37,732 bases of DNA from Oscillospiraceae bacterium (lineage in GTDB: Bacteria > Bacillota > Clostridia > Oscillospirales > Ruminococcaceae), in assembly GCA_017427265.1 (NCBI GenBank), contig JAFRTG010000016.1, positions 1 to 37,732 on the forward strand, in the 5' to 3' direction. Shown one piece after another: positions 1,367 to 35,693 of the stretch. Numbering within the stretch: position 1 is the stretch's first letter; every line of letters begins with the position of its first letter. Under the pieces are notes generated by a model. That model was given only the letters and a program-made list of their open reading frames with translations, was not told the DNA's origin and made no database searches. The position numbers were made by a program, and so were the translations under genes.

Positions 1367-1405
1367 AAGAGACCGAAGGAGTCAGTCCTTCCGGTCTCTT
1401 TTTTT
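1367..1405. terminator. Bidirectional terminator at the integrase 3' end
   Basis: AAGAGACCGAAGGA (1367-1380) pairs with TCCTTCCGGTCTCTT (1386-1400) with one bulged C, and T7 follows on the plus strand (1399-1405). On the minus strand the stem is made of the last integrase codons, the TGA stop sits in the loop, and TTTT follows. It would stop integrase transcripts and also shield integrase from antisense transcription arriving from the tRNA side. Confidence 0.75.
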
Positions 1406-2437
1406 GTCCTCATATTTACTGTGAGCTGCCTCAAAACGGGCAACGATGTCATTCTCAACCTGACGTCGTTTATCGCTCATTGTGTGCTGATAAATGTTTT
1501 TGAGTGTGCTGTCTGTTTTCCAGCCGCCGCGCTCCATGATATATTTGTCCGGCACACCCATTGCATGAAGAATTGACGCCTGGTAATGGCGCAAATCATG
1601 GAAACGAAAATGCGGAAGATTGAATTTTGTCCGAACATCTATAAAGTAGTCTGTAATTGTCACCGGCGCAAGCTCGACGATCCTGCCGGATGCTGATCGA
1701 GGAACGAGCCGCTCGATCACGAAAGCCGGCATCTTGATATCGCGGTAACCTGCCTTGCTTTTCGGCTGCTTGATTACCCATTGCTTTGCGTCATCCAGCA
1801 CCATCGCCTTGCGGACATGGATAACATTACCTTCGATATCATCCAGCGTCAGCGCCGCACATTCGGAACGGCGAAGTGAACCGAATGCAGCAAGCAGTAC
1901 TGCTTTTTCAAGCTCTGTGCCGCGGATGCTACTGACAAGGTTCTCGACCTCTGCCTCAGTCGGGACATAGATTTCCGCTTTTTTCGGCTGCGGCAGCCGC
2001 GTGTTCAGTACGATCTCCGGCGCGAACATGCGCAGAACAGCACTCAGTAAGCCGTGAGCGTTTCGTACAGACTTCGGACTGTGGTCTGCTGCCATGATGT
2101 TGACGGCGCTCTGGACAGCTTCCTGCGTGATCTTCGACAGCTTGAGCGGCATCAGCTCCGGAAAGTCATGCGCTGCCGCCCGTGTATATTCTCTGACTGT
2201 AGAAGGGGAGAGCGTATTCCGCTTGATTTCGATGTAACGCACATATGCCTTGGCAAGTGTGCGGTCATCAGACCGGGCTGCTGTCTTTTTCTTCGCGGCG
2301 TATTCCGCAGCCAGATACTCGGCGTCTTTCTTCGCTGGTGCCGTGAAGCTCTTGTATATATTTTTCCCTTCGGCGGTCTTGCCGTCATACACACGGACAC
2401 GCCAGCTCCCTGACGGCAGCTTCTTCGCTTTTGCCAT
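1382..2437 (-). CDS. int: Phage integrase, tyrosine recombinase
   Basis: 351 aa. Catalyses integration and excision at the tRNA-Leu att site. The N-terminal region (residues 1-50, GSWRVRVYDGK..GK..YKSF) looks like an arm-site-binding domain, followed by a SAM-like core-binding domain (about 57-140) and the catalytic domain. Catalytic residues seen: R189 (GSLRRSE), H280 and R283 (FHDLRH), W306 in the second His/Trp position (RGGW) and nucleophile Y316. The start has a good site (GGAGT, 6 nt before ATG). It begins 12 nt after the HicB-like gene on the same strand, so it is probably transcribed with the GNAT set. It lies next to attL, as usual. Confidence 0.95.
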   Translation of the reverse strand: MAKAKKLPSGSWRVRVYDGKTAEGKNIYKSFTAPAKKDAEYLAAEYAAKKKTAARSDDRTLAKAYVRYIEIKRNTLSPSTVREYTRAAAHDFPELMPLKLSKITQEAVQSAVNIMAADHSPKSVRNAHGLLSAVLRMFAPEIVLNTRLPQPKKAEIYVPTEAEVENLVSSIRGTELEKAVLLAAFGSLRRSECAALTLDDIEGNVIHVRKAMVLDDAKQWVIKQPKSKAGYRDIKMPAFVIERLVPRSASGRIVELAPVTITDYFIDVRTKFNLPHFRFHDLRHYQASILHAMGVPDKYIMERGGWKTDSTLKNIYQHTMSDKRRQVENDIVARFEAAHSKYEDKKRDRKD

Positions 2438-3552: not shown

Positions 3553-5034
3553 TTATTCATCTTCATTTTCTTCTGATATATCATCAAACTCTGGAACAAC
3601 CTCATCACGATTGATACTTTGATAATACTGTTCAGCAATCATTGTGCGTCGGAATTCAGCAGTCGGGTCAAATTCCAAAACAGCTTGCTCCAGTTCATCA
3701 ATCGGTACACGGAAGAATTCTTTACGTAGATTAACCTTATTCACACGCTGCTGATTGAAACGCTTATGTAGTGCTGTTTCAAGACTCGGCGCATCTTGTG
3801 AGAAGATCAGACTATGCACATCAAATTCAAACGGTACACTTGCATTGCCGAGTTCATGAATACGATCCATAGGCTCAAAGCGCCGCGTCATGCCGATTTT
3901 GAACACATCATCGCCAAATGAACCGAGATTACTGATTATATAGACATGTCCGGCTTTTCCATTCTGAAGATTGACGATTTGCGCTTTCTTTTCCTGAACC
4001 TGCTGTCGCTGTCCTTCCAGTTCTGCAATTCGAGCACGAAGCTGTGCAAGTACTGTTTCATCAGAGGCAGCCTCAACCTTTTCAATTAGCTGTTCGATCT
4101 CCGTATTGAATTTGGATTCCTCGTGTTCTATCTTCCTGCGTTCTATTTCAAGAGCTTTTCGTTCTTCTGCTTCCTGCTTCATCTGCTCGCGCAAAGCCCG
4201 CTGCTCCTCGCGTGCCTGTTCTTTCTTGACATAGTATTCATATTCGATTTTGACGGTTCCAATAAAAAGAAATTCGATCTCTGCAATAAAACTTTTCATT
4301 GTCGGCGCAATACTCTGATTTCCTTCTACTGCAACTTCGTAATAGCGTTGCGTAACGGATTTGACATTTCCGACAGCATCTTCTATCTTGCCAAATGAGA
4401 GCGTTGACAGGATGTTTTGCAGTTCCGCTTCCATTGCAATGACCATAAGCTGATAGATCGCAATATTGGATTTGGTAGTGTATCTGCCTTCATACCGCTT
4501 AAACACTTTTTGGATTTCTCGCTGATTCTGATTGTATCGTTTCCGCAGATCGCGCATATTCATACAGTTCAGATCAACATGGACAATCGGCATCAGGTAA
4601 TCATCCGGCAGAATATCTGAAAGGATAGCATCCGGATTCTTCTCGTATCCTTTTACAGCGGCTTTGTATTGCTCATAAAGCTGCTTGACTTTCTGTGTAT
4701 CCGAAACTGTTTTATCATATGCTGCTTTTTTCTGCTGGGTATCTGCCATTGTCAGCGCAAGTAATTCCTGATCCGCTTTCAACTGCGTGTATTCAGTGTG
4801 TTTGGCTTCGAGCTGCTGAGTGATTGCATCGAGGTCTTTCTGCTCCTGTGGCATACTTGCTTTGAGTTCACCGAGTTGCTTAACGGAATCTTGATATTGC
4901 TGTTTAATAGTCTCAATTTGCTGTTGCATCCGATTGACTTGCTGGATGAGTTCATTGTTTTGACTCTGAGCTTGTTGAAGCTGCTCTTTTAACTGTTGAT
5001 TTTCGGTTGCTTTGAACAAATCCAGAAATCCCAT
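3553..5034 (-). CDS. DUF4041 coiled-coil protein with C-terminal GIY-YIG (T5orf172) nuclease domain
   Basis: 493 aa. A long Gln-rich coiled coil (about 10-120) precedes a DUF4041-like region (about 140-265, ILPDDYLMPIVHVDLN, LRKRYNQNQREIQKVFKRYEGRY), a second charged coiled coil (265-350), and a GIY-YIG-type domain (361-445). In the last, VYII (364-367) and FKIGMT (378-383) are the two signature strands, followed by R384/R385, an H423 helix and the putative metal ligand E439 (RKEFF). The site AGGAGG lies 10 nt before the ATG. It follows the repressor by 20 nt and is expressed in lysogens, a position often used for genes that affect other phages or superinfection. Substrate unknown. Confidence 0.82.
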   Translation of the reverse strand: MGFLDLFKATENQQLKEQLQQAQSQNNELIQQVNRMQQQIETIKQQYQDSVKQLGELKASMPQEQKDLDAITQQLEAKHTEYTQLKADQELLALTMADTQQKKAAYDKTVSDTQKVKQLYEQYKAAVKGYEKNPDAILSDILPDDYLMPIVHVDLNCMNMRDLRKRYNQNQREIQKVFKRYEGRYTTKSNIAIYQLMVIAMEAELQNILSTLSFGKIEDAVGNVKSVTQRYYEVAVEGNQSIAPTMKSFIAEIEFLFIGTVKIEYEYYVKKEQAREEQRALREQMKQEAEERKALEIERRKIEHEESKFNTEIEQLIEKVEAASDETVLAQLRARIAELEGQRQQVQEKKAQIVNLQNGKAGHVYIISNLGSFGDDVFKIGMTRRFEPMDRIHELGNASVPFEFDVHSLIFSQDAPSLETALHKRFNQQRVNKVNLRKEFFRVPIDELEQAVLEFDPTAEFRRTMIAEQYYQSINRDEVVPEFDDISEENEDE

Positions 5035-11608: not shown

Positions 11609-12427
11609 ATGATCGACATTGACGGTTTTCGGCAGTATTTGTACGAAGAAGAAATGGCACGGAACACAGTAATAAGCTATCTCCAGGCTGTGGAGCAGTA
11701 TGCGCGGAGATTCGATGAGATCAGCAAGGGCAATCTGATCGAATGGAAACAGGAGCAACTTGCAAGGTACAAGCCGACGACCGTTAATCTCAGAATCGCC
11801 GGTCTGATGTGCTATTGCAGATATGCCAGGATACCGGTGCGGCTCAAAACAGTCAAGATGCCGACAAAGACATGCGTTGAGAATGTCATAACGCAGGAGC
11901 AGCTTGATCAGCTCCTGCGCGGTCTGGATCAGGACGGCCGCCGCTGTTGGATTGTCAATATTTTGCTGCTCGCAAAGACCGGTATGCGGATCTCTGAGGC
12001 GCTGCGAGTTAAGAAAAGCGACATCGAGCACGGTCAGATCACGATGCACACCAAGGACCACATGCGGACGATCTACTTTCCGGCATCTCTGGTCACGGAT
12101 ATCTGGGCTGACCTTGCCGATCTGTCGCTTTCTGATCAGGTGATCCGCGGGAACCGGTATCAGTATAAGCAACCGGTGCCGATCAGCAGCTCTGCCGGCT
12201 TCCGAAACAGCCTGAACCGCATCGGCGTCCGATATGGCATTCCGAAAGAGGTCCTGCATCCGCACAGCTTCCGGCACTACTTCGCACTGGAATTCCTCAA
12301 GGAGAATCCGGACATTGCATTGCTTGCAGATATCCTCGGGCACCGGTCAATCGACATGACCAGGATATATCTGAAACGATCTCAGGAGCAGCTGAAAGAC
12401 GCGGTTGACAAGGCGGTAAAATGGTGA
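11609..12427 (+). CDS. Second tyrosine recombinase (XerC/D-like)
   Basis: 272 aa. N-terminal SAM-like core-binding domain (about 1-85, MARNTVISYLQAVEQYARRF) and catalytic domain (95-272). All expected catalytic residues are present: R127 (TGMRISEAL), K149 (HTKD), H219 and R222 (HPHSFRHYF), H245 (ILGHRSIDM) and Y254 (TRIYLKR). It lacks the arm-binding domain of the true integrase and resembles XerD in size. AAAGGAGC precedes the ATG. It sits in the early operon, far from att, so it is not the integrase; genome dimer or concatemer resolution, or inversion control, are candidate roles. Confidence 0.88.
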   Translation: MIDIDGFRQYLYEEEMARNTVISYLQAVEQYARRFDEISKGNLIEWKQEQLARYKPTTVNLRIAGLMCYCRYARIPVRLKTVKMPTKTCVENVITQEQLDQLLRGLDQDGRRCWIVNILLLAKTGMRISEALRVKKSDIEHGQITMHTKDHMRTIYFPASLVTDIWADLADLSLSDQVIRGNRYQYKQPVPISSSAGFRNSLNRIGVRYGIPKEVLHPHSFRHYFALEFLKENPDIALLADILGHRSIDMTRIYLKRSQEQLKDAVDKAVKW

Positions 12428-26609: not shown

Positions 26610-26649
26610 GCCTATGCGCCGTACTGCCACATGAAAAGGAGTGGTATGT

Positions 26650-29600
26650 ATGGCATTTGATGGCACACTGAAATTTGATACCAGTATTGATAAATCAGGC
26701 TTTGAGTCCGGTCTTGCAAAGCTCGGCAGTATCGCAAAATCCGGCATGACAGCGGTTGAAGGATATGCTTCTGTTGCTGCGGATGCAGTGTCATTTATAG
26801 GCGAGAAAGCGTCTGATATAGATTCCATAGCTGATGCGGCAATTGAAGCATCAAGTGCCATTGCAGCACTTGGGAAGAACGCAATTTTCGTTGATATAGT
26901 TGCAGATTCAGCTGAAGAAGCTGCGTTAACTATTTCGGAAATCGGTAAGAATGCTATTTCCGTTGATGCAGTAACGGATTCAGCTGAGGAAGCTGCCTTA
27001 ACGATTTCAGAAATCGGAAAGAATGCTGCGGCAATAGATGATGTTTCTGCTGCGGCAGAAGGTGCTTCTGAATCAGTAACAGAGTTGGGTGATAAATCTG
27101 CCGATGTTGATGAAGTAACCGGTGCTGCTACAGATGCATCAGATGCTATGGCTGAGCTGGAAGGCAAGTCACGCAGCGCAGGGGTAAGTATATCATCAGC
27201 GTTTGAGAAGATCGGCGGTATTGCCAAAACGGGAATGAAAGCAATCGCCGGCGCGATCACTGCCGCAACCGGCGCAATGGCAGCGCTCGGCGCAAAGGCG
27301 CTTGAGGCCTACGCGGACTACGAGCAGCTGACCGGCGGCGTTGCGACGCTGTTCGGAGCTCAAGACATGAGTCTTGAAGAATATGCGCAGAGCGTCGGCA
27401 AGACGGTTGATGCGGTCAAGGGCGAGTATGACAATCTGATTGCCGCGCAGGATGCTGTGATGCAAAATGCAGCAGAAGCATACCGAACAGCTGGTATGTC
27501 TGCAAATAAGTACATGGATACGGTCACGAGTTTTTCTGCGGCTCTGATCGCATCTCTGGACGGCGATACCGCTAAGGCTGCACAGGTGGCTGACCGCGCC
27601 ATCGTGGATATGTCTGACAATGCGAACAAGATGGGCAGCAGCATGGAGAGCATCCAGACTGCCTATCAGGGATTCGCAAAGCAGAATTACACGATGCTCG
27701 ACAACCTGAAACTCGGCTATGGCGGTACGAAATCCGAGATGGAACGTCTGCTTGCTGATGCAGAAAAGCTGTCAGGAATCCACTATAATCTTGACAGCTA
27801 TGCTGACATTGTCGAGGCAATCCATGTCATCCAGACACAAATGGGCATCACAGGCACGACCGCCAAGGAAGCAGCCGAGACAATCAGCGGCTCGGTTGCA
27901 ATGACGAAAGCTGCCTTCAGCAATCTGCTTGTCGGCATTGCTGATGATGAGCAGGACTTTGAAAAGCTCGTTGACGATCTGGTGAACAGTGCAACGACCG
28001 CAGCCGGCAACATCCTGCCGCGTGTGGAAACGATCATCGGCGGCCTTGGCAAAATGATCTCATCGCTGAGCGGTATTGCTGCGAATATGCTTGTTGACCT
28101 AACAGCATATGTTCCTGATCTGGTCGAGGCGGGCGTGTCGCTGATCGGGGCTGTTGCAGATGGCTTGACCGCCAATGCGCCTGCTGTTTCGCAGGCTGCG
28201 CTGGATGCAGGTCTGCTGCTGGTTGACGGTATTATGTCTGTTACGCCTGATCTGCTTGCCTTGAACGGTGAGCTGATCTCTACGCTGATCGACGGTCTGA
28301 CCGAGCATCTTCCTGTGCTTGTAGATGCGGCAATGGAGACCGGACTCTCTATTCTGTCCGGCATCACTGCACATCTTCCGGATATCATCGAAGCGGCAAA
28401 GAATATCATCACAAAAATCACTGATGTTCTGGTGACCAATATCCCGCTTGTGGCGAATGCTGTTGTGCAGATCGTCGGTTCTCTGCTGGAAACGCTGACT
28501 GACCCTAGCCTGCTGACCTCTCTGCTCGATGCCGCTTTGCAGATTATTCTGACGCTTGCGCAGGCACTTCTTGACAATATCCCGCAGATCATTGAGATCA
28601 TTTCCACGCTGATCACAAATGTGATTGACTTCATTATCGAGGCTGTGCCGATGCTGCTGGACGCGGCGATACAGCTGTTTATGGCAATCGTCGATGCACT
28701 GCCGCAGATCATTGACGCGCTGACTAAGGAGCTTCCGCGCATCCTTGATGCGGTCGTGAGCGTGATTCCTCAGCTTGTGCAGGCGCTCGCAAAAGCACTG
28801 CCGCAGATCATTCAGGCAATTACGCAGGCAATTCCGATCATCATTCAGGCTATCACACAGAATCTGCCGCAGATTATCAATGCGCTGATTTTATCGCTTC
28901 TTTCAATGAACACGCAGCTGCTTGATGCAGCGATTCAGTTGCTGTATGCAATTCTGGACGCATTGCCGATTATCAACGAAGCATTGCTTGAAGCACTGCC
29001 TGAGATCATCGACGCAATCGTCACAGTGCTTATAGAAGCGGTGCCGCAGATGTATGAGGCAGCATTCACGCTGTTCATGGCACTCGTCGAGGCGCTGCCG
29101 GAGGTTCTTGAAAAGCTGGTCGAGTATTTCGGCGAGATGTTCACCATTGTTGATGAATGGATTGACGAGATCTTCACAAATGCTGTGGATGCGGTTGCTT
29201 CGTGGTTCAGTCAGATGATCGGGGATGCTAAGAAGGCTGCATCCGACCTGGTTACCGGCGCCATGCAGTTCCTGGACGAGCTACCTGGCAAGATCGGCGA
29301 GATGCTCGGCTATGCGGTCGGAAGTATCGTACAGTTCGCGCAGGACGCACCGGCGAAGGCAAAAGAAGCCGCAGAGCAGTTCCTTGCGAACGTCGTTGAG
29401 TTCTTCACGCAGCTGCCAGATAAGGCAAAGGAGTTCCTCGATAGCACAATCGAAAAAGTGCAGACATGGGCTGCTGACCTTGCGAAGAAGGGCAAGGAAG
29501 GGGCTGCCGATCTTGTTAAGAAGATCGAAACGGAAATTTCCACATTGCCGCAAAAGATGTTCGACGCCGGCAGAAATCTGGTTGAAGGACTATGGAACGG

Positions 29601-30141
29601 CATTTCCAACATGGGCAACTGGCTGAAAGAAAAAATCAGCAGCTTTGCAGGCGGAATCATCAGTGGCTTCAAGGATGCATTCGGCATTGAATCTCCGTCG
29701 AAGGTTATGCGGGACAGCGTCGGCAAGTATCTCGCACAGGGCATCGGCGTCGGCTTTACGGAAGAGATTCCGGAGATCGGAAAGGCTGCACTTGATGCGT
29801 TCAGTGATCTGAAACTGCCGGATATTGATATGAACGTCAGATCAGATATTCCGAAACCGAAGCTGCCTCACATCGACGGTGATGCTGTGAACATGATCCG
29901 GACATTCAATGATCGACCTGATTCCGGTCTTATTCAGCCGAGTCCGACATCAGAGATCACGAACAACTATTACAGCAGTTCGACAAGCAACCGAACAGTA
30001 AGCGAAAAGCCTGTTGTCAATGTCTATAACAATATGAATGTCGAAATGGACGGCGAAAAGGTCGCGGAACTGGTTGCCGAAAAGGTTGATATCCTGCAAG
30101 GTGAGACCGTTGAAATGGACGAAAGGGGGACGGCACATTGA
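26650..30141 (+). CDS. Tail tape measure protein
   Basis: 1163 aa; ATG 8 nt after AAAAGGAG (an earlier GTG lies within the site). Sets tail length and is ejected with DNA. Residues 1-38 and 183-210 are similar to each other (LAKLGSIAKSGMTAVEG, FEKIGGIAKTGMKAIAG) and flank six 24-aa repeats. Residues 215-450 form the coiled-coil core. From about 460 to 840 a long series of hydrophobic helices with P-Q-I-I/D-A-L steps could span the membrane. After charged helices, FKDAFGIESPSKVMRDSVGKYLAQGIGVGF (about 1015-1045) is the conserved tape-measure motif. Overlaps the Dit start by three bases. Confidence 0.93.
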   Translation: MAFDGTLKFDTSIDKSGFESGLAKLGSIAKSGMTAVEGYASVAADAVSFIGEKASDIDSIADAAIEASSAIAALGKNAIFVDIVADSAEEAALTISEIGKNAISVDAVTDSAEEAALTISEIGKNAAAIDDVSAAAEGASESVTELGDKSADVDEVTGAATDASDAMAELEGKSRSAGVSISSAFEKIGGIAKTGMKAIAGAITAATGAMAALGAKALEAYADYEQLTGGVATLFGAQDMSLEEYAQSVGKTVDAVKGEYDNLIAAQDAVMQNAAEAYRTAGMSANKYMDTVTSFSAALIASLDGDTAKAAQVADRAIVDMSDNANKMGSSMESIQTAYQGFAKQNYTMLDNLKLGYGGTKSEMERLLADAEKLSGIHYNLDSYADIVEAIHVIQTQMGITGTTAKEAAETISGSVAMTKAAFSNLLVGIADDEQDFEKLVDDLVNSATTAAGNILPRVETIIGGLGKMISSLSGIAANMLVDLTAYVPDLVEAGVSLIGAVADGLTANAPAVSQAALDAGLLLVDGIMSVTPDLLALNGELISTLIDGLTEHLPVLVDAAMETGLSILSGITAHLPDIIEAAKNIITKITDVLVTNIPLVANAVVQIVGSLLETLTDPSLLTSLLDAALQIILTLAQALLDNIPQIIEIISTLITNVIDFIIEAVPMLLDAAIQLFMAIVDALPQIIDALTKELPRILDAVVSVIPQLVQALAKALPQIIQAITQAIPIIIQAITQNLPQIINALILSLLSMNTQLLDAAIQLLYAILDALPIINEALLEALPEIIDAIVTVLIEAVPQMYEAAFTLFMALVEALPEVLEKLVEYFGEMFTIVDEWIDEIFTNAVDAVASWFSQMIGDAKKAASDLVTGAMQFLDELPGKIGEMLGYAVGSIVQFAQDAPAKAKEAAEQFLANVVEFFTQLPDKAKEFLDSTIEKVQTWAADLAKKGKEGAADLVKKIETEISTLPQKMFDAGRNLVEGLWNGISNMGNWLKEKISSFAGGIISGFKDAFGIESPSKVMRDSVGKYLAQGIGVGFTEEIPEIGKAALDAFSDLKLPDIDMNVRSDIPKPKLPHIDGDAVNMIRTFNDRPDSGLIQPSPTSEITNNYYSSSTSNRTVSEKPVVNVYNNMNVEMDGEKVAELVAEKVDILQGETVEMDERGTAH
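26764..27195 (+). repeat. Six tandem 72-bp (24-aa) repeats in the tape measure gene
   Basis: Units code residues 39-62, 63-86, 87-110, 111-134, 135-158 and 159-182. Units 3 and 4 are nearly identical (both start SAEEAALTISEIGKNA); the others share G-K at 13-15 and D-x-V at 19-21. The stretch is AT-richer than the rest of the gene and lies between two similar flanking segments. Confidence 0.8.
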
Positions 30142-30860
30142 ACGCCGGATTTGCAATAGATCACGGAGAGACACAAGGATTCTGGTCTCCGTCACTCCTC
30201 GGTTTCCGGCTGCTTTCGCGGCAGATCGGAGAACCGCCGAAGGATGATCGTTCTGAACGTGTACCATACAGCAGTGTGACGCACTATTTCGAGGAATCCT
30301 CGCCGAGCTACGGCGAGCGGACGCTTTCCTACAAGTTCGATCTGGTAAACCGCGATCATCGGAATGTGCAGTTTCTGCTGTCTCAGCTGAGGAACCGTCT
30401 CAGCTGGACCGGCGTCCGTGATCTGCATGACAGTTCATATCCGGATTATCATTTTGAGGTCCGTGCGCCGGATATTAAGCCAGAAGACGGTCAGCACACT
30501 GTTCTGGTTGTGACGATCACATTCAAGGCAAATCCGGCAATGCTTCCAAATTATGTTCCGGCTCTGACGGAATCAGAGAAGCGATATCCGGATATCAACG
30601 GTGACGGTAAAATCACAGCCGGGGATGCCGGTCTGATCCTTACCGCAGCGGAGAGCATTGCCGCGGGACATTCCAGCGGTCTGACACCGGCGCAGGAACT
30701 GCTTGCCGATGCTGATCTGGACGGAGTAATCACTGAAAAGGATTCGCTGCTCGTCCTGCAATATGCATCGGCAGTTTTCGCCGGACAGTTTGAGGATACT
30801 GCCGAAAACTGGCAGAAGTACCTGCGGCGGTATCTTGCAATGAAAGGAGCACTGTACTGA
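30138..30860 (+). CDS. Distal tail protein (Dit) with C-terminal dockerin type I domain
   Basis: 240 aa, starting at TTG with GGGGG 7-8 nt upstream. Residues 1-140 are a Dit/Siphovirus tail component (NAGFAIDHGETQGFWSPSLLGFRLLSR, TLSYKFDLVNRDHRNVQFLLSQLRNRLSW, YPDYHFEVRAPDIKPEDGQHTVLVVTITFKANP). Residues 150-216 are a dockerin: first loop D152-x-N154-x-D156-G-K-I-x-x-x-D163, second loop D191-x-D193-x-D195-G-V-I-x-x-x-D202, each followed by a helix (AGLILTAAESIA, SLLVLQYASAVF). All calcium ligands are present in both loops. Dockerins bind cohesins on cellulosome scaffoldins. Set on the tail tip hub, it may recognise a cohesin on the host surface; this is inference. Confidence 0.88.
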   Translation: MNAGFAIDHGETQGFWSPSLLGFRLLSRQIGEPPKDDRSERVPYSSVTHYFEESSPSYGERTLSYKFDLVNRDHRNVQFLLSQLRNRLSWTGVRDLHDSSYPDYHFEVRAPDIKPEDGQHTVLVVTITFKANPAMLPNYVPALTESEKRYPDINGDGKITAGDAGLILTAAESIAAGHSSGLTPAQELLADADLDGVITEKDSLLVLQYASAVFAGQFEDTAENWQKYLRRYLAMKGALY

Positions 30861-32767
30861 TGTATCAGATCACGATTGACAACGGCGGCGAGCGCCAGAT
30901 TCTGCATGCAGATGATCCGAACAGTACGCAGCGCATCGCAGCAGGAAAATTCAAGGAGTATGTCGGATTGATTCCGTCAGTTGCAATCACAGTCACGCCG
31001 CAGAACGCTTGCTATAACATGCTGCATGATCGCAATACACTGACTGAGTTGAAGAACACAGAGACCGGTGAAATTGAGTTTGAGGGATATCTGCTCAAGT
31101 CTCCGGAGAGCATGACCAGCAAAGGAACACTGCAAAAGAAACTGACATTCGAGGGATTTCTCGGTTATCTTAATGACAGCGTGCAGATGTACCGGCACTT
31201 TGAGAACGCATCGCCGACTGAATTCATTACCGCTGTCCTGGACTACCATAACGCAACGACCGAGGAGAGCAAACATATCTATGTTGGAATGATCAACGCC
31301 GGACAGGGTGGAAGTAAAACAACAGCATACCGCAGTACGCTTGGAGAACTGAAAGAAAATCTTGTCAGCCGGTTCGGCGGTGAGCTTCGTGTCCGGCGCG
31401 GTCCGGACGGCAGGCTGTACCTCGATTACCTGACTGCTGCGAATAACGGCGGCACATCGGACGTCATCGTCAATCTCGGTCACAATCTTCGGTCACTGAG
31501 CATCGAGAGCGACACGGCAAACATCATCACGCGGCTGATTCCGCTCGGCGCGCAGCTTGATGATATTACTCCGGCGAAGAATAAGGAGCAATCTGCTGAG
31601 CGTCTGACGATTATCGGCGCGGTTGACCCGGACGACGGTCACACCTACGCGGTACCTTACATCGACGATCCGGCAGCAATCGCACGGTATGGCGTGATTG
31701 TCGGTACGGTTGAGTTTGATGATATCACAGTCAAGGAGAACCTTGTCGCACGCGGCAAGTCGTACCTCACAGAAAACAATCGCGTGAAGAAGCACTATGC
31801 TGCATCCGTTCTGGATATATCCGGCAAGGGCGTGATCCGCTGCGGTGATACATACCGCTTCCGGAATCCGCTCATGGGGATTGATGAGAATCTCCGGCTG
31901 CTCGGGCGCACGGTCGATATCCTGAAACCGTACACGCCGGACGTCGAGATCGGTGACAAGACCGCGAAGATCACCAGCATGACGGCAAAGACGCAGCACA
32001 TGATTGACTATGAGCTGCCGAATCAGCTGTCACAGACTGTCCAGACTGCGCAGCGCATTGCAACTCAGATGATCGAAGCTGCCACAACCGGCTATGTGGT
32101 GATCCGCTCGAACGAAATCCTGATTATGGATACGGACGATATTGAGACGGCGACAAGCGTCTGGCGGATGAACAGCGGAGGCATCGGATACAGCAGCACG
32201 GGATATCATGGGTCATTCGGCACAGCAATCACGATGGACGGTCACATCATCGGAAGCTTTATTGCTGCTGGCTCCATATACGCTGACCGAATTCGCGGCG
32301 GTACTCTGCTGATGGGCGGCACGGACAATGTCAATGGCGTGATTGAGGTTGCGGACGCTTCCGGGAACATCGTCTGCCGGCTTGACCAGAACGGTGCGGA
32401 TATATTCGGCCAGGTTCTGACAAGAGATGCAGCGGGATACTGGGTGCAGCTGATCGGTGGTCAGCTCATTGGCGGATTTGGAAATGATAAGTATGTGACT
32501 ATCGACGCATCAGCAGATATTTATTCACCTGATATCGGTCGTCATGACAAGGGCCTGAATGTTGAGGCGGACGGAATCAATTTCACATGCAATACATTCG
32601 GTATCAACGGCGGACGCGGAACGGGCGGAACGCTATATTGCATAGGCGGTTCACCGGCGCATGTCGTGACAGATGTATCGCTGGATGCAGACGGTCAGCT
32701 TGATGTGCAGTATGCGAACATCGCAGAGGCGTATTTCTCGAACGGTATTCTTGTCGGAGGTGGATGA
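30860..32767 (+). CDS. Tail-associated lysin/baseplate hub (Tal, prophage endopeptidase tail family)
   Basis: 635 aa; ATG shares a base with the Dit stop, AAAGGAG upstream. The N-terminal hub (1-330: IPSVAITVTPQNACYNMLHDRNTLTELKNTETGEIEFEGYLLKS, LNDSVQMYRHFENASPTEFI, GELRVRRGPDGRLYLDYL, IITRLIPLGA) is the gp27-like fold common to Tal proteins. The rest (VWRMNSGGIGYSSTGYHGSFGTAITMDGHI, IGSFIAAGSIYADRIRGG) is the beta-helical shaft seen in phage minor structural proteins. No catalytic lysin domain is recognisable at the end, so a fibre or adaptor role is as likely. Confidence 0.88.
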   Translation: MYQITIDNGGERQILHADDPNSTQRIAAGKFKEYVGLIPSVAITVTPQNACYNMLHDRNTLTELKNTETGEIEFEGYLLKSPESMTSKGTLQKKLTFEGFLGYLNDSVQMYRHFENASPTEFITAVLDYHNATTEESKHIYVGMINAGQGGSKTTAYRSTLGELKENLVSRFGGELRVRRGPDGRLYLDYLTAANNGGTSDVIVNLGHNLRSLSIESDTANIITRLIPLGAQLDDITPAKNKEQSAERLTIIGAVDPDDGHTYAVPYIDDPAAIARYGVIVGTVEFDDITVKENLVARGKSYLTENNRVKKHYAASVLDISGKGVIRCGDTYRFRNPLMGIDENLRLLGRTVDILKPYTPDVEIGDKTAKITSMTAKTQHMIDYELPNQLSQTVQTAQRIATQMIEAATTGYVVIRSNEILIMDTDDIETATSVWRMNSGGIGYSSTGYHGSFGTAITMDGHIIGSFIAAGSIYADRIRGGTLLMGGTDNVNGVIEVADASGNIVCRLDQNGADIFGQVLTRDAAGYWVQLIGGQLIGGFGNDKYVTIDASADIYSPDIGRHDKGLNVEADGINFTCNTFGINGGRGTGGTLYCIGGSPAHVVTDVSLDADGQLDVQYANIAEAYFSNGILVGGG

Positions 32768-32768
32768 T

Positions 32769-33251
32769 ATGCAGATAAATATTTCCGTTGTGAACCGCAT
32801 TGCGCGTGTGATCGGTACATCGCAGATCGTCTGCGGCAACAGCGACTATGTTGCTGTCTTCACGTTTGACGCCGAATGGAATGACTACGCCGACAAGACA
32901 GCACGGTTTCAGTATTTCAAAGACGGGAAGTTTGAGCATGTCGATGTGACGTTTACCGGCAGCTCGTGCGCGATGCCGGTGCTGACGGATATCGACCGCG
33001 TTGAGATCGGAGTCTTCGCCGGAGAGATCAGGACGACAACGCCGGCGGTTGTACCATGCTGCCGTTGCATCTCGGACATTCCGGCAGAAGAATATGCAGC
33101 GCCGGCAGATATGTATGATCAGATCATGGACATGGTGCAGGAAGCGATGAATCCGCCGCCGGAGTCTGGGGATGACGAATACTTCATCGTTACAGCCGAA
33201 GGCGATTATGTGACGACGTCAGAAGGCGACTATATCATAGCAAAGGAGTGA
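32769..33251 (+). CDS. Baseplate/fibre connector protein, paralogue A
   Basis: 160 aa from ATG after GGAGGTGG. The conserved block VCGNSDYVAVFTFDAEWNDYADKTARF, AMPVLTDIDRVEIGVFAGE, IRTTTPAVVPCCRCISD is shared with the gene at 34524. The end has two tandem YFIVTAEGDYVTT/SEGDYIIAKE strands. Probably part of the baseplate, by position between Tal and fibre. Confidence 0.68.
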   Translation: MQINISVVNRIARVIGTSQIVCGNSDYVAVFTFDAEWNDYADKTARFQYFKDGKFEHVDVTFTGSSCAMPVLTDIDRVEIGVFAGEIRTTTPAVVPCCRCISDIPAEEYAAPADMYDQIMDMVQEAMNPPPESGDDEYFIVTAEGDYVTTSEGDYIIAKE

Positions 33252-33252
33252 G

Positions 33253-34524
33253 ATGATGGCAAACACGAAGTACAATCCTGCGAACGCAGGAAGATCGGAC
33301 TTTGACAGACTGTTTTCGGCAGCTAATGAAGTTCAAACAGCACGAGGAGCACACAGTAGCCTCGATGATCGTCTTGATGCAGCTGACTCGAATGTTGCGG
33401 AGATACAGTCAGACATCACAACAAACGTCAAGCCTGATATCGAAGTGTTGAAAGACGATGCTGAAACAGCAGAAAAAGGAATCGCAAGACTGACAGACAA
33501 GACAGCAAAGAATAAGCTGAACACGGTGTATCTTGCAGCATTGAAGACTTACAACACAGAAGGATCGTGGAGCGGAAACACGTACATGATCGACGGTCTT
33601 GAATTCGAGGTGGAACAGGACGGAATGATCGAAGTGACCGGAACGCATGACACGATAGTCACGCGGTTCTATCTGCCTGTTCCGACGCTCGCAGCAGGAA
33701 CGTATGCGATCAGCGGCTGTCCTGCATCCGGATCTGCAACGAAATACTGCCTGAGACTGAAGGACGGCATCACAGAGCAGTACGTCAACGATTACGGCGA
33801 AGGTGAGGTATTCCCTATAGCCACGGTGCAGCCGCTGAGCGTCGAGATTAAGATTGCGCTGGAGTACAATAGCACAGTCGAGCTGACGTTCAAGCCTATG
33901 ATCTGTCTGAGAGATGAATTTCAGCAGTCAGACAAGTATGTTCCATATTGTCCGACGCAGCAGGAGGCATATTTGGAGTCTCTTGCACTGGAAGGAGATC
34001 TGAATGATGAGGAGTCGGCTCGGTCTGCTGCTGACACGAAGCAGACGTCAGCACTGACTGGAATTATCAACGGAGGATCAAAAAACAGAGTAACAGTAAG
34101 CGATACAAGCGGTACGCGCAATGTTGTCATTCCGGTCAATCTTCCGGCTGGAAAGTATATTATCTCGTTTGGAGAGATTGCGTCTACAGACACCGACGCT
34201 TCGGTATGTCGTTTGGCTTTTGCAGACGCGACGGACACCGCTGTCTGGACAGGCGGTACAACGAGAGGTGAGGGCAAGTCAATCAGCGTAACGCTTGAAG
34301 CTGCTGCTGCAAGACTTTACGTTTACGCATCCGACAATTACAGTCACAGCGGAGGCGATACCGTCACGGTCACAAATTTGATGATCTGCACGAAGGCGGA
34401 ATGGGACATCTCACAGGAGTTTGTGCCGTACTGTCCGACCATGCCGGAGCTGTATGCAATGATTCAGGCGCTGGGAGGCGGTAATCGGAGCATTTCGGAA
34501 TCCGATGGAGAGGAGGAGCGCTGA
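33253..34524 (+). CDS. Putative tail fibre / receptor-binding protein
   Basis: 423 aa. A coiled-coil start (DSNVAEIQSDITTNVKPDIEVLKDDAETAEKGIARL) for trimer formation is followed by two jelly-roll-like modules (about 105-245 and 275-410). Each ends with a similar block: TFKPMICLRDEFQQSDKYVPYCPT and VTNLMICTKAEWDISQEFVPYCPT. Such PMI...VPY ends are frequent in phage carbohydrate-binding fibre modules. Likely binds cell-wall sugars. AAAGGAG upstream; a second ATG follows the first. Confidence 0.72.
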   Translation: MMANTKYNPANAGRSDFDRLFSAANEVQTARGAHSSLDDRLDAADSNVAEIQSDITTNVKPDIEVLKDDAETAEKGIARLTDKTAKNKLNTVYLAALKTYNTEGSWSGNTYMIDGLEFEVEQDGMIEVTGTHDTIVTRFYLPVPTLAAGTYAISGCPASGSATKYCLRLKDGITEQYVNDYGEGEVFPIATVQPLSVEIKIALEYNSTVELTFKPMICLRDEFQQSDKYVPYCPTQQEAYLESLALEGDLNDEESARSAADTKQTSALTGIINGGSKNRVTVSDTSGTRNVVIPVNLPAGKYIISFGEIASTDTDASVCRLAFADATDTAVWTGGTTRGEGKSISVTLEAAAARLYVYASDNYSHSGGDTVTVTNLMICTKAEWDISQEFVPYCPTMPELYAMIQALGGGNRSISESDGEEER

Positions 34525-35015
34525 TGCCGGTGCTGAACATCAAGGTTCGTGAGAAGATCGCACAGACATCCGGATCACCGGAAGTTGTATGCGGTAACAG
34601 CGATTATGTGGCGGTGTTCGATCTTGACGAGGAATGGGAGAGCTATTACGCGAAGACCATGCGCGTCGCATGGCTTGACATTCCGACCGGAAAGCCGAGA
34701 TACACGGATGTCGCATTTTCCGGATTGTCTGCGACGCTGCCTGTGATCGCAGATGCTTACGAGATCGCAGTCGGTATCTATGCCGGCGATATCCGGACGA
34801 CGACGCCTGCGCGGATTCCGTGTGCGAGAAGCATTACTGACGGCAGCGCAGTACATCCTGCACCGACGCCGGACGTATACGAGCAGATTATTGAATTGCT
34901 TGAAGCAATCGCCCATCCGCTCGGATTCGGCGTGACGGGAGATGCAACAATGCTGATTGACGGCTACAACTTGTCGCTTGTCGGTCGGGCAACAGTTATT
35001 CAGGAGGTGGAGTAA
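34524..35015 (+). CDS. Baseplate/fibre connector protein, paralogue B
   Basis: 163 aa; ATG shares a base with the fibre stop, GGAGGAG upstream. EVVCGNSDYVAVFDLDEEWESYYAKTMRV, LPVIADAYEIAVGIYAGD, IRTTTPARIPCARSITDG, VYEQIIELLEAI mirror paralogue A. The end differs (GFGVTGDATMLIDGYNLSLVGRATVIQEVE). The pair flanks the fibre gene, so each may anchor one fibre type. Confidence 0.68.
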   Translation: MPVLNIKVREKIAQTSGSPEVVCGNSDYVAVFDLDEEWESYYAKTMRVAWLDIPTGKPRYTDVAFSGLSATLPVIADAYEIAVGIYAGDIRTTTPARIPCARSITDGSAVHPAPTPDVYEQIIELLEAIAHPLGFGVTGDATMLIDGYNLSLVGRATVIQEVE

Positions 35016-35693
35016 ATGGCGATCATAAGAGACACATTAGCAAACCTTGCAGCGCTGGCGACGTGGATGCAGCAGAATTACGTTCCTTCGCTTTTCAAAT
35101 CGGTGACGTATTCAAGCGGCGTTATGACCGCGACGGACGCAGACGACAACACAGTGCTTGAAATACATCAGGGGACGGGCAGTGTGAATCAAGGATATTT
35201 CAGAGCATACCGAGCAGAAAGCAACTACCTCGGCTTTACGCTTAGCAGTTTTCCGTCATCGACAGGCGGAGGGTCAACAATCCAGATCATCGGATGCGAC
35301 AATGGTTTTATCATCGGATGCCCGATAAGGATTGGCTACGGTGACGCCAACTTCGCGGCGGTGTTCACGAAAACGAACAACGACAAACCTGCTATCATAT
35401 TCCCGTCAAGTCCGAACGCTACCTTGCCGCAGCAGTACACAACCGCGCTGAATCACGTAGCATTTGGCGACAGCGCAACGATCGCGACCACAACCACTTT
35501 CACGCCGGAAGCGGGACAGCAGAACTGCCTCGTCCCGTTTGCGACGAACGCAAACATCGGGGATACAAGCTATACGCCGTATGCCTATTACATTGCGATG
35601 GGTACGAACTACGCAATGGGATTAGGCAAGTTTGAGATGGGAGATTCTGTTTACATCAGCAACGGCTATTGGGCGATAAGGGAGGGCAGCTGA
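35016..35693 (+). CDS. Structural protein of the tail tip, possible second fibre
   Basis: 225 aa, starting immediately after paralogue B with AGGAGG upstream. The start is helical (DTLANLAALATWMQQNYVPSLF), then beta-rich (VTYSSGVMTATDADDNTVLEIHQG, GYFRAYRAESNYLGFTLSSF, IQIIGCDNGFIIGCPIRIGYG). No known family recognised. Placement before the holin fits a host-range protein. Confidence 0.6.
   Translation: MAIIRDTLANLAALATWMQQNYVPSLFKSVTYSSGVMTATDADDNTVLEIHQGTGSVNQGYFRAYRAESNYLGFTLSSFPSSTGGGSTIQIIGCDNGFIIGCPIRIGYGDANFAAVFTKTNNDKPAIIFPSSPNATLPQQYTTALNHVAFGDSATIATTTTFTPEAGQQNCLVPFATNANIGDTSYTPYAYYIAMGTNYAMGLGKFEMGDSVYISNGYWAIREGS

Follow-up and report, generated by a model that had tools for sequence, protein, structure and literature searches.

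Why would the tail tip of a phage carry a dockerin? The question is raised by a dit gene in contig JAFRTG010000016.1 of an Oscillospiraceae bacterium, which we analysed over its whole length of 37,732 nucleotides (the window). An initial annotation, made from the letters, had proposed that the encoded distal tail protein (Dit) ends in a dockerin with two complete calcium loops and that the virion might adsorb through the cellulosome. Here, we found that the fusion of a Dit ring domain with a dockerin is real, conserved and selected, and we consider it likely that Dit-borne dockerins would tether the virion to surface cohesins for adsorption. The gene starts with TTG, downstream of a ribosome-binding-type stretch, and comprises the following features:

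30138..30860, +, dit gene with its stop codon, 240 amino acids, ring domain and dockerin (PHROG and Pfam)
30122..30129, +, AAAGGGGG, ribosome-binding-type stretch before the TTG start codon (by eye)
30138..30545, +, Dit N-terminal (ring) domain, residues 1-136
30582..30782, +, dockerin type I module, residues 149-215
30591..30626, +, calcium loop 1, residues 152-163, DINGDGKITAGD (sequence)
30618..30662, +, dockerin helix 1, residues 161-175 (predicted secondary structure)
30708..30743, +, calcium loop 2, residues 191-202, DADLDGVITEKD (sequence)
30735..30779, +, helix after loop 2, residues 200-214 (predicted secondary structure)
30801..30845, +, helix near the C terminus, residues 222-236; Trp225 conserved (alignment, predicted structure)
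30846..30857, +, last residues GALY, 237-240 (comparison with the ends of relatives)

Both halves of the protein were recognised by profile and by fold. Residues 20-131 matched the PHROG distal tail protein Dit (E = 2.4e-5), and residues 151-209 matched Dockerin_1 (PF00404) in Pfam with E = 1.3e-10 and 41.8 bits against a cut-off of 22.9. EF-hand_1 reached only E = 0.15; Dockerin_1 outscores the EF-hand profiles, which rules out an unrelated EF-hand and settles a doubt that the initial annotation had raised itself. The AlphaFold model of the window Dit has a mean predicted local distance difference test score (pLDDT) of 83.3, with blocks over residues 151-210 at 90-94 and residues 39-55 below 50, and Foldseek with VIA-align led from the N-domain to Dit folds and from the C-domain to dockerin folds. 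In sequence and model alike, both calcium loops are complete and followed by a helix, and the loop residues given in the initial annotation (D152/N154/D156/D163 and D191/D193/D195/D202) are correct; the dockerin does not, however, end the chain, as the helix 222-236 and residues 237-240 follow it. Trp225 of this helix is W in at least 90% of the 20 rows of an alignment of relatives (A3). Dockerin-less relatives end in KELI or EEVF, and judged from such comparison of ends the terminal GALY may mark a return to the ring.

Is a protein of this kind known? In the literature, mostly open-access papers, we found no description of a dockerin on a Dit or of the cellulosome as a phage receptor, in line with the initial annotation, which knew of no such system. 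The nearest idea is the evolved Dit: evolved Dits of siphophages of lactic acid bacteria that bear a carbohydrate-binding module (CBM) bind the host (PMC7291167, in part), and an evolved Dit promotes the adsorption of skunaviruses (PMC10688798, in part). Evolved Dits resemble the window protein in that a binding module has been added at the periphery of a Dit ring; whereas their CBM is inserted in the galectin domain, here a protein-binding dockerin replaces that domain. The window ring domain matches SPP1-type Dits, and the Dit of SPP1 (gp19.1) has a galectin-fold C-domain where the window Dit has its dockerin (PMC7291167, in part). We do not class the window Dit as a CBM-type evolved Dit: no CBM was found in it, only Dockerin_1 passing the Pfam cut-off, and there is no room for one because the ring (1-136) and the dockerin with its helix (149-236) fill the chain. 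Two further phage proteins share the dockerin name, namely Gp02 of Escherichia coli phage HSE2, termed dockerin upon a modelled likeness to a carbohydrate-binding module (PMC5967307, in part), and gene 40 of vibriophage VvAW1, for which a BLAST remark names a dockerin and which holds a putative attachment-site sequence (PMC3558961, in part). As far as these portions of the two papers go, neither is a Dit or is tied to cohesins.

Conservation, selection and exchange of the dockerin

Is the fusion an oddity of one genome? A scan of viral contigs gave 8 related loci at first and 28 once an alignment was used as the query; together with at least 6 loci on genome contigs, this makes at least 34. 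Among the matches listed, 30 of 34 loci carry the Dit-dockerin fusion, which rules out chance or a single-genome oddity. These 30 loci represent 21 distinct proteins (three cut at the contig start), and with the window, L184 and L185 the distinct Dit-dockerin proteins total 24. Every one of the 20 rows of alignment A3 has a Dockerin_1 match at E<=0.001. L100 and L101, which are identical, have a ring without dockerin, L102 is cut by a contig end, and L108 encodes a secreted dockerin protein and no Dit. The five genome-contig carriers are labelled as Ruminococcus metagenome-assembled genomes. Over 396 genomes of the family, a ring-domain profile gave five matches, with a dockerin in G000 (the window's host), G053 and G291 and without one in G050 and G105; among 30 genomes of the genus, full-length matches occurred in G000 and G025 only. 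In INPHARED, the window Dit matched 9 records by its ring domain alone, and the dockerin segment of the relative L091 had no match in 50,697 records at E<=0.01. DNA of L096, an IMG record, matched G000 and G025 and, weakly, G029, none of which is its source genome. In one phage dockerin (L099:6001-6864), some 50 additional residues lie between the calcium loops.

The ratio of nonsynonymous to synonymous change per site (pN/pS) of the dockerin lies at 0.08-0.32 in 10 of 11 pairs, the remaining pair having no dockerin change; the values come from uncorrected counts, the pairs are not independent, and pS is high in distant pairs. By these counts the dockerin is under purifying selection, and positive selection across the whole module was not seen, pN/pS being well below 1.

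The dit gene sits between the tape-measure and Tal/Prophage_tail genes, and the tail genes around it in the window are as follows:

26641..30141, +, tail tape-measure gene (phrog_58, E = 1.3e-94)
30860..32767, +, Tal / Prophage_tail endopeptidase gene (PF06605, E = 9.7e-20; phrog_3558, E = 5.1e-92)
32769..33251, +, baseplate accessory gene with a paralogue at 34524-35015
33253..34524, +, putative tail-fibre-like gene
34524..35015, +, second copy of the accessory gene
35016..35693, +, candidate receptor-binding protein (RBP) gene; its homologue is a variable region in L090/L092

Comparison of close relatives points to the dockerin as a moving part. Between L090 and L091 the ring has zero synonymous change and the dockerin a pS of 0.157; along the locus, where identity is near 100% on either side of the dockerin, it drops to 90-91% within it. 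Identity is also lowered over part of the tape measure and the region before it (94-97%), further downstream, and in the candidate RBP gene, where it falls to as little as 74% against L092 and 88% against L091. The pair of the window and L103 shows the reverse, with a pS of 0.27 in the ring and 0.057 in the dockerin. In the chimeric Dit L106:677-1390, the dockerin is 77% and the ring 29% identical to L085, and the ring is 24-38% identical to the other A3 rows. These sequence patterns indicate that the dockerin module is exchanged between Dit backbones. A recent capture from the window's host is ruled out, the closest own-host dockerin being 40% identical.

Which positions change fastest? We count position 22 of the dockerin repeat as a recognition position by assumption. 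The recognition class comprises, besides this position, positions 10, 11, 17 and 18 of each repeat (PMC4081043, in part), so that the position classes are partly our own choice. With these classes, IQ-TREE site rates were 1.52 for recognition positions, 0.99 for other exposed positions, 0.56 for the core and 0.36, the slowest, for calcium/Gly positions; within the dockerin repeats the recognition class was the fastest (permutation among 26 positions, p=0.011).

The host cellulosome and a candidate partner cohesin

Does the host offer a partner? In the host genome G000, cohesins gave 22 matches and dockerins 129, counting the window's own, and by this gene content the host is a cellulosome maker. 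Host contig C42 holds polycohesin frames of 1990 and 1419 amino acids and, at C42:6035-7021, a 328-residue single-cohesin protein whose end is made up of QTGD, hydrophobic residues and RKKH; we read this as a sortase-type anchor. The best match of this protein in the PDB is 8ajy_A (also 9gvb; E = 5.1e-4), with 4iu2_A level with it (E = 5.5e-4). Both bear the name 'Cell-wall anchoring protein', and we take both to be ScaE; among the host cohesins, the ScaE-like protein alone was compared with the PDB. A profile of 15 phage dockerins, in turn, best matched 8ajy_B, the ScaH dockerin of R. flavefaciens (E = 6.2e-13), which is also the closest solved match of the window Dit model, aligned over all 84 residues. 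The two chains of this one complex are thus matched by the phage profile and, weakly, by the host anchor. The group-4 dockerins of R. flavefaciens FD-1, including ScaH-Doc, bind wall-anchored ScaE, and Gly-Arg dyads are involved (PMC5301203, in part). The window dockerin differs from this closest solved relative in being borne on a phage tail and in having no Gly-Arg dyad. Although the nearest solved dockerin is a group-4 member, the internal Gly-Arg symmetry of that group is absent, and we do not class the window dockerin as group-4 (ScaE-binding) by sequence. Two single-cohesin proteins of the host (G000:C31:30164-31096 and G000:C3:67953-68813) begin with lipoprotein-type signals as read by eye, and the host may therefore show cohesins at the membrane too.

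Ranked by the phage profile, the top own-host dockerin lies on a secreted protein of contig C45 (70.7 bits), and 11 of the 13 best fall in a group-4-like set of 14; four are on frames with a cohesin match. The ranking covered 117 of 128 dockerin places (the window's own excluded, 11 unmapped), with L099 outside the phage profile, and since the set was drawn by eye from the same sequences, the ranking alone is used. Counted by eye, half of this set of host dockerins (7 of 14) have Leu-Arg in one loop or both. At positions 10-11, the relatives L095 and L097 have NR/GR and NR/AR, respectively, and dockerins of another genus that resemble the phage ones have mostly small residues there. That recognition residues track the host is suggestive only, the window mismatching its own host's set. 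In two genomes of another genus, with L216 (G053) among the loci concerned, the phage-dockerin profile found 22 and 25 matches, those of their own prophage included, one with the residues of phage L079 at positions 10-11 (AN/AS).

A lack of cohesins in the host and in the hosts of relatives, which the initial annotation had named as a refutation, was not borne out: the host has them, and so do the genomes with relatives, one of them below the cut-off only. The eight carrier genomes are G000, G025 (= G030, same contig as L103), G031, G032, G033, G034, G053 and G291, and 7 of them have a cohesin match at E<=1e-7, a level reached by 106 of 396 genomes family-wide; the binomial probability of 6e-4 ignores ancestry, and the carriers come partly from another collection.

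Proposed adsorption through cohesins and its alternatives

We infer the following mechanism. A temperate siphophage of a cellulosome-building Ruminococcus would have a Dit hexamer whose subunits each bear a dockerin at the edge of the ring, where SPP1-type Dits have their galectin domain; this peripheral position is suggested by analogy with solved Dits. The ring would present up to six calcium-stabilised dockerins, exposed on the hexamer, which would plug into host cohesins, most likely wall-anchored ones of the ScaE type and possibly scaffoldin-borne ones, and so tether the virion to cellulosome-bearing cells before the candidate RBP and Tal act. The host would probably be gripped by its cellulose-digesting machine.

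Adsorption as proposed in the initial annotation agrees with the purifying selection, the exchange of cassettes and the fast recognition positions; several observations weigh against it. The carrier G032 has a sub-threshold cohesin match only (1.6e-4); ancestry confounds the association with cohesins, each of the seven listed members of the genus being cohesin-positive; and G050 and G105, whose ring-domain proteins lack a dockerin, are cohesin-positive as well. A second prophage of the same host, L203 (G000:C17:12000-28000), has a Dit (L203:10251-10913, minus strand; phrog_33, E = 2.7e-16) with no dockerin match. Because such dockerin-less phages sit in cohesin-positive genomes, the dockerin is not universally required. 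As for the partner, the host anchor resembles ScaE only weakly, the double dockerin 8x3a_A of C. thermocellum is a close second for the phage profile (E = 1.7e-12 over two stretches), and the window protein alone gave weak matches, with 2y3n_B (E = 0.052) before 8ajy_B (E = 0.23). Positions 10-11 of the window dockerin are AG and EK, which is not the Gly-Arg dyad and also differs from the Leu-Arg of the host set. High rates are not confined to the recognition class: the linker before the dockerin equals it (1.54), and position 7 reaches 2.2 and 1.96 in the two repeats. In Ruminococcus albus, dockerins are numerous, with a single cohesin or none (PMC4081043, in part).

Could the dockerin instead serve the virion itself, as a calcium-stabilised arm that holds another baseplate protein (accessory, fibre or RBP), much as the C-domain of the p2 Dit does with its RBP, and never touches a host cohesin? 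The peripheral Dit domains of p2 and 80alpha do contact the RBP (PMC7291167, in part), and many relatives encode a small beta-sandwich protein after Tal (AlphaFold pLDDT 88.9; generic Ig-like sandwich matches). However, this family also occurs beside the dockerin-less Dit of G050, as the N-terminal part of a 527-residue protein, and in G338, whose gene at the place of dit matches neither a Dit profile nor a dockerin. Homologues of the window's accessory baseplate genes (50-54% identical) likewise adjoin dockerin-less genes in the Dit position in L203, which shares these genes, and in L204, which has one homologue next to a gene that matches no family. Neither family is therefore an obligate dockerin partner, though a facultative one may exist among them. 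No cohesin was found by Pfam in the scanned tail proteins, and no cohesin fold for the beta-sandwich protein among the matches listed; together with the occurrence of the beta-sandwich family without a dockerin-bearing Dit, this led us to reject a phage-encoded cohesin partner. As the recognition positions also evolve fast and not slowly, we regard a structural arm as unlikely.

Quite unlikely, in our judgement, is that the dockerin binds cohesins for other ends, such as joining scaffoldins released at lysis, riding the cellulosome to the fibre or blocking cohesins. Cohesins are plentiful in the host, many on secreted scaffoldins, and the sequence evidence is identical to that for cohesin binding as such; yet the dockerin sits on the tail-tip ring, a place at which decorations help other phages to adsorb, and a comparison of L090 with L092 shows it to vary in the same way as the candidate RBP gene. 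A dockerin fold repurposed for a different ligand, a host surface glycan or another protein, would accommodate the lack of the Gly-Arg dyad in most phage dockerins and the many dockerin-bearing bacteria with few or no cohesins (PMC4081043, in part), but it seems improbable to us given that the nearest dockerins in sequence profile and structure bind cohesins and that carrier genomes contain them. The 129 dockerin matches of the host genome would make accidental capture of a functionless passenger easy; 24 distinct proteins in diverged lineages, with low pN/pS and with calcium/Gly positions the slowest, render it scarcely credible, and purifying selection already contradicts it.

Adsorption through surface cohesins thus remains our preferred reading. 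More tentatively, and with real doubt, we speculate that these Ruminococcus siphophages, as a widespread group, read the cohesin-dockerin code of their hosts, with surface cohesins as the receptor and phage lineages following strain-specific cohesins through cassette exchange and recognition changes. If so, host range would follow cellulosome type, receptor choice would be predictable from dockerin and cohesin sequences, and phage pressure, as a selective force open to testing, would help to explain the diversity of cohesin-dockerin pairs and the divergence of their specificities between ruminococcal strains. The cellulosome, with which key bacteria of gut and rumen degrade fibre, would double as a phage receptor, phage predation would be linked to plant-fibre digestion, and evolved Dits would extend from sugar binding to a host protein-protein code.

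Prophage context

The window contains, around the tail genes, an integrase gene near a tRNA-Leu as well as portal, terminase, capsid, connector, holin and endolysin genes, which identify a tailed prophage. Two genes encode tyrosine recombinases (Phage_integrase), at 1382-2437 (minus strand) and 11609-12427 (plus strand), the former near the tRNA-Leu at 1144-1227. In the early region, 3553-5034 (minus strand) encodes a protein with a T5orf172/MUG113 domain, presumably of the GIY-YIG type.
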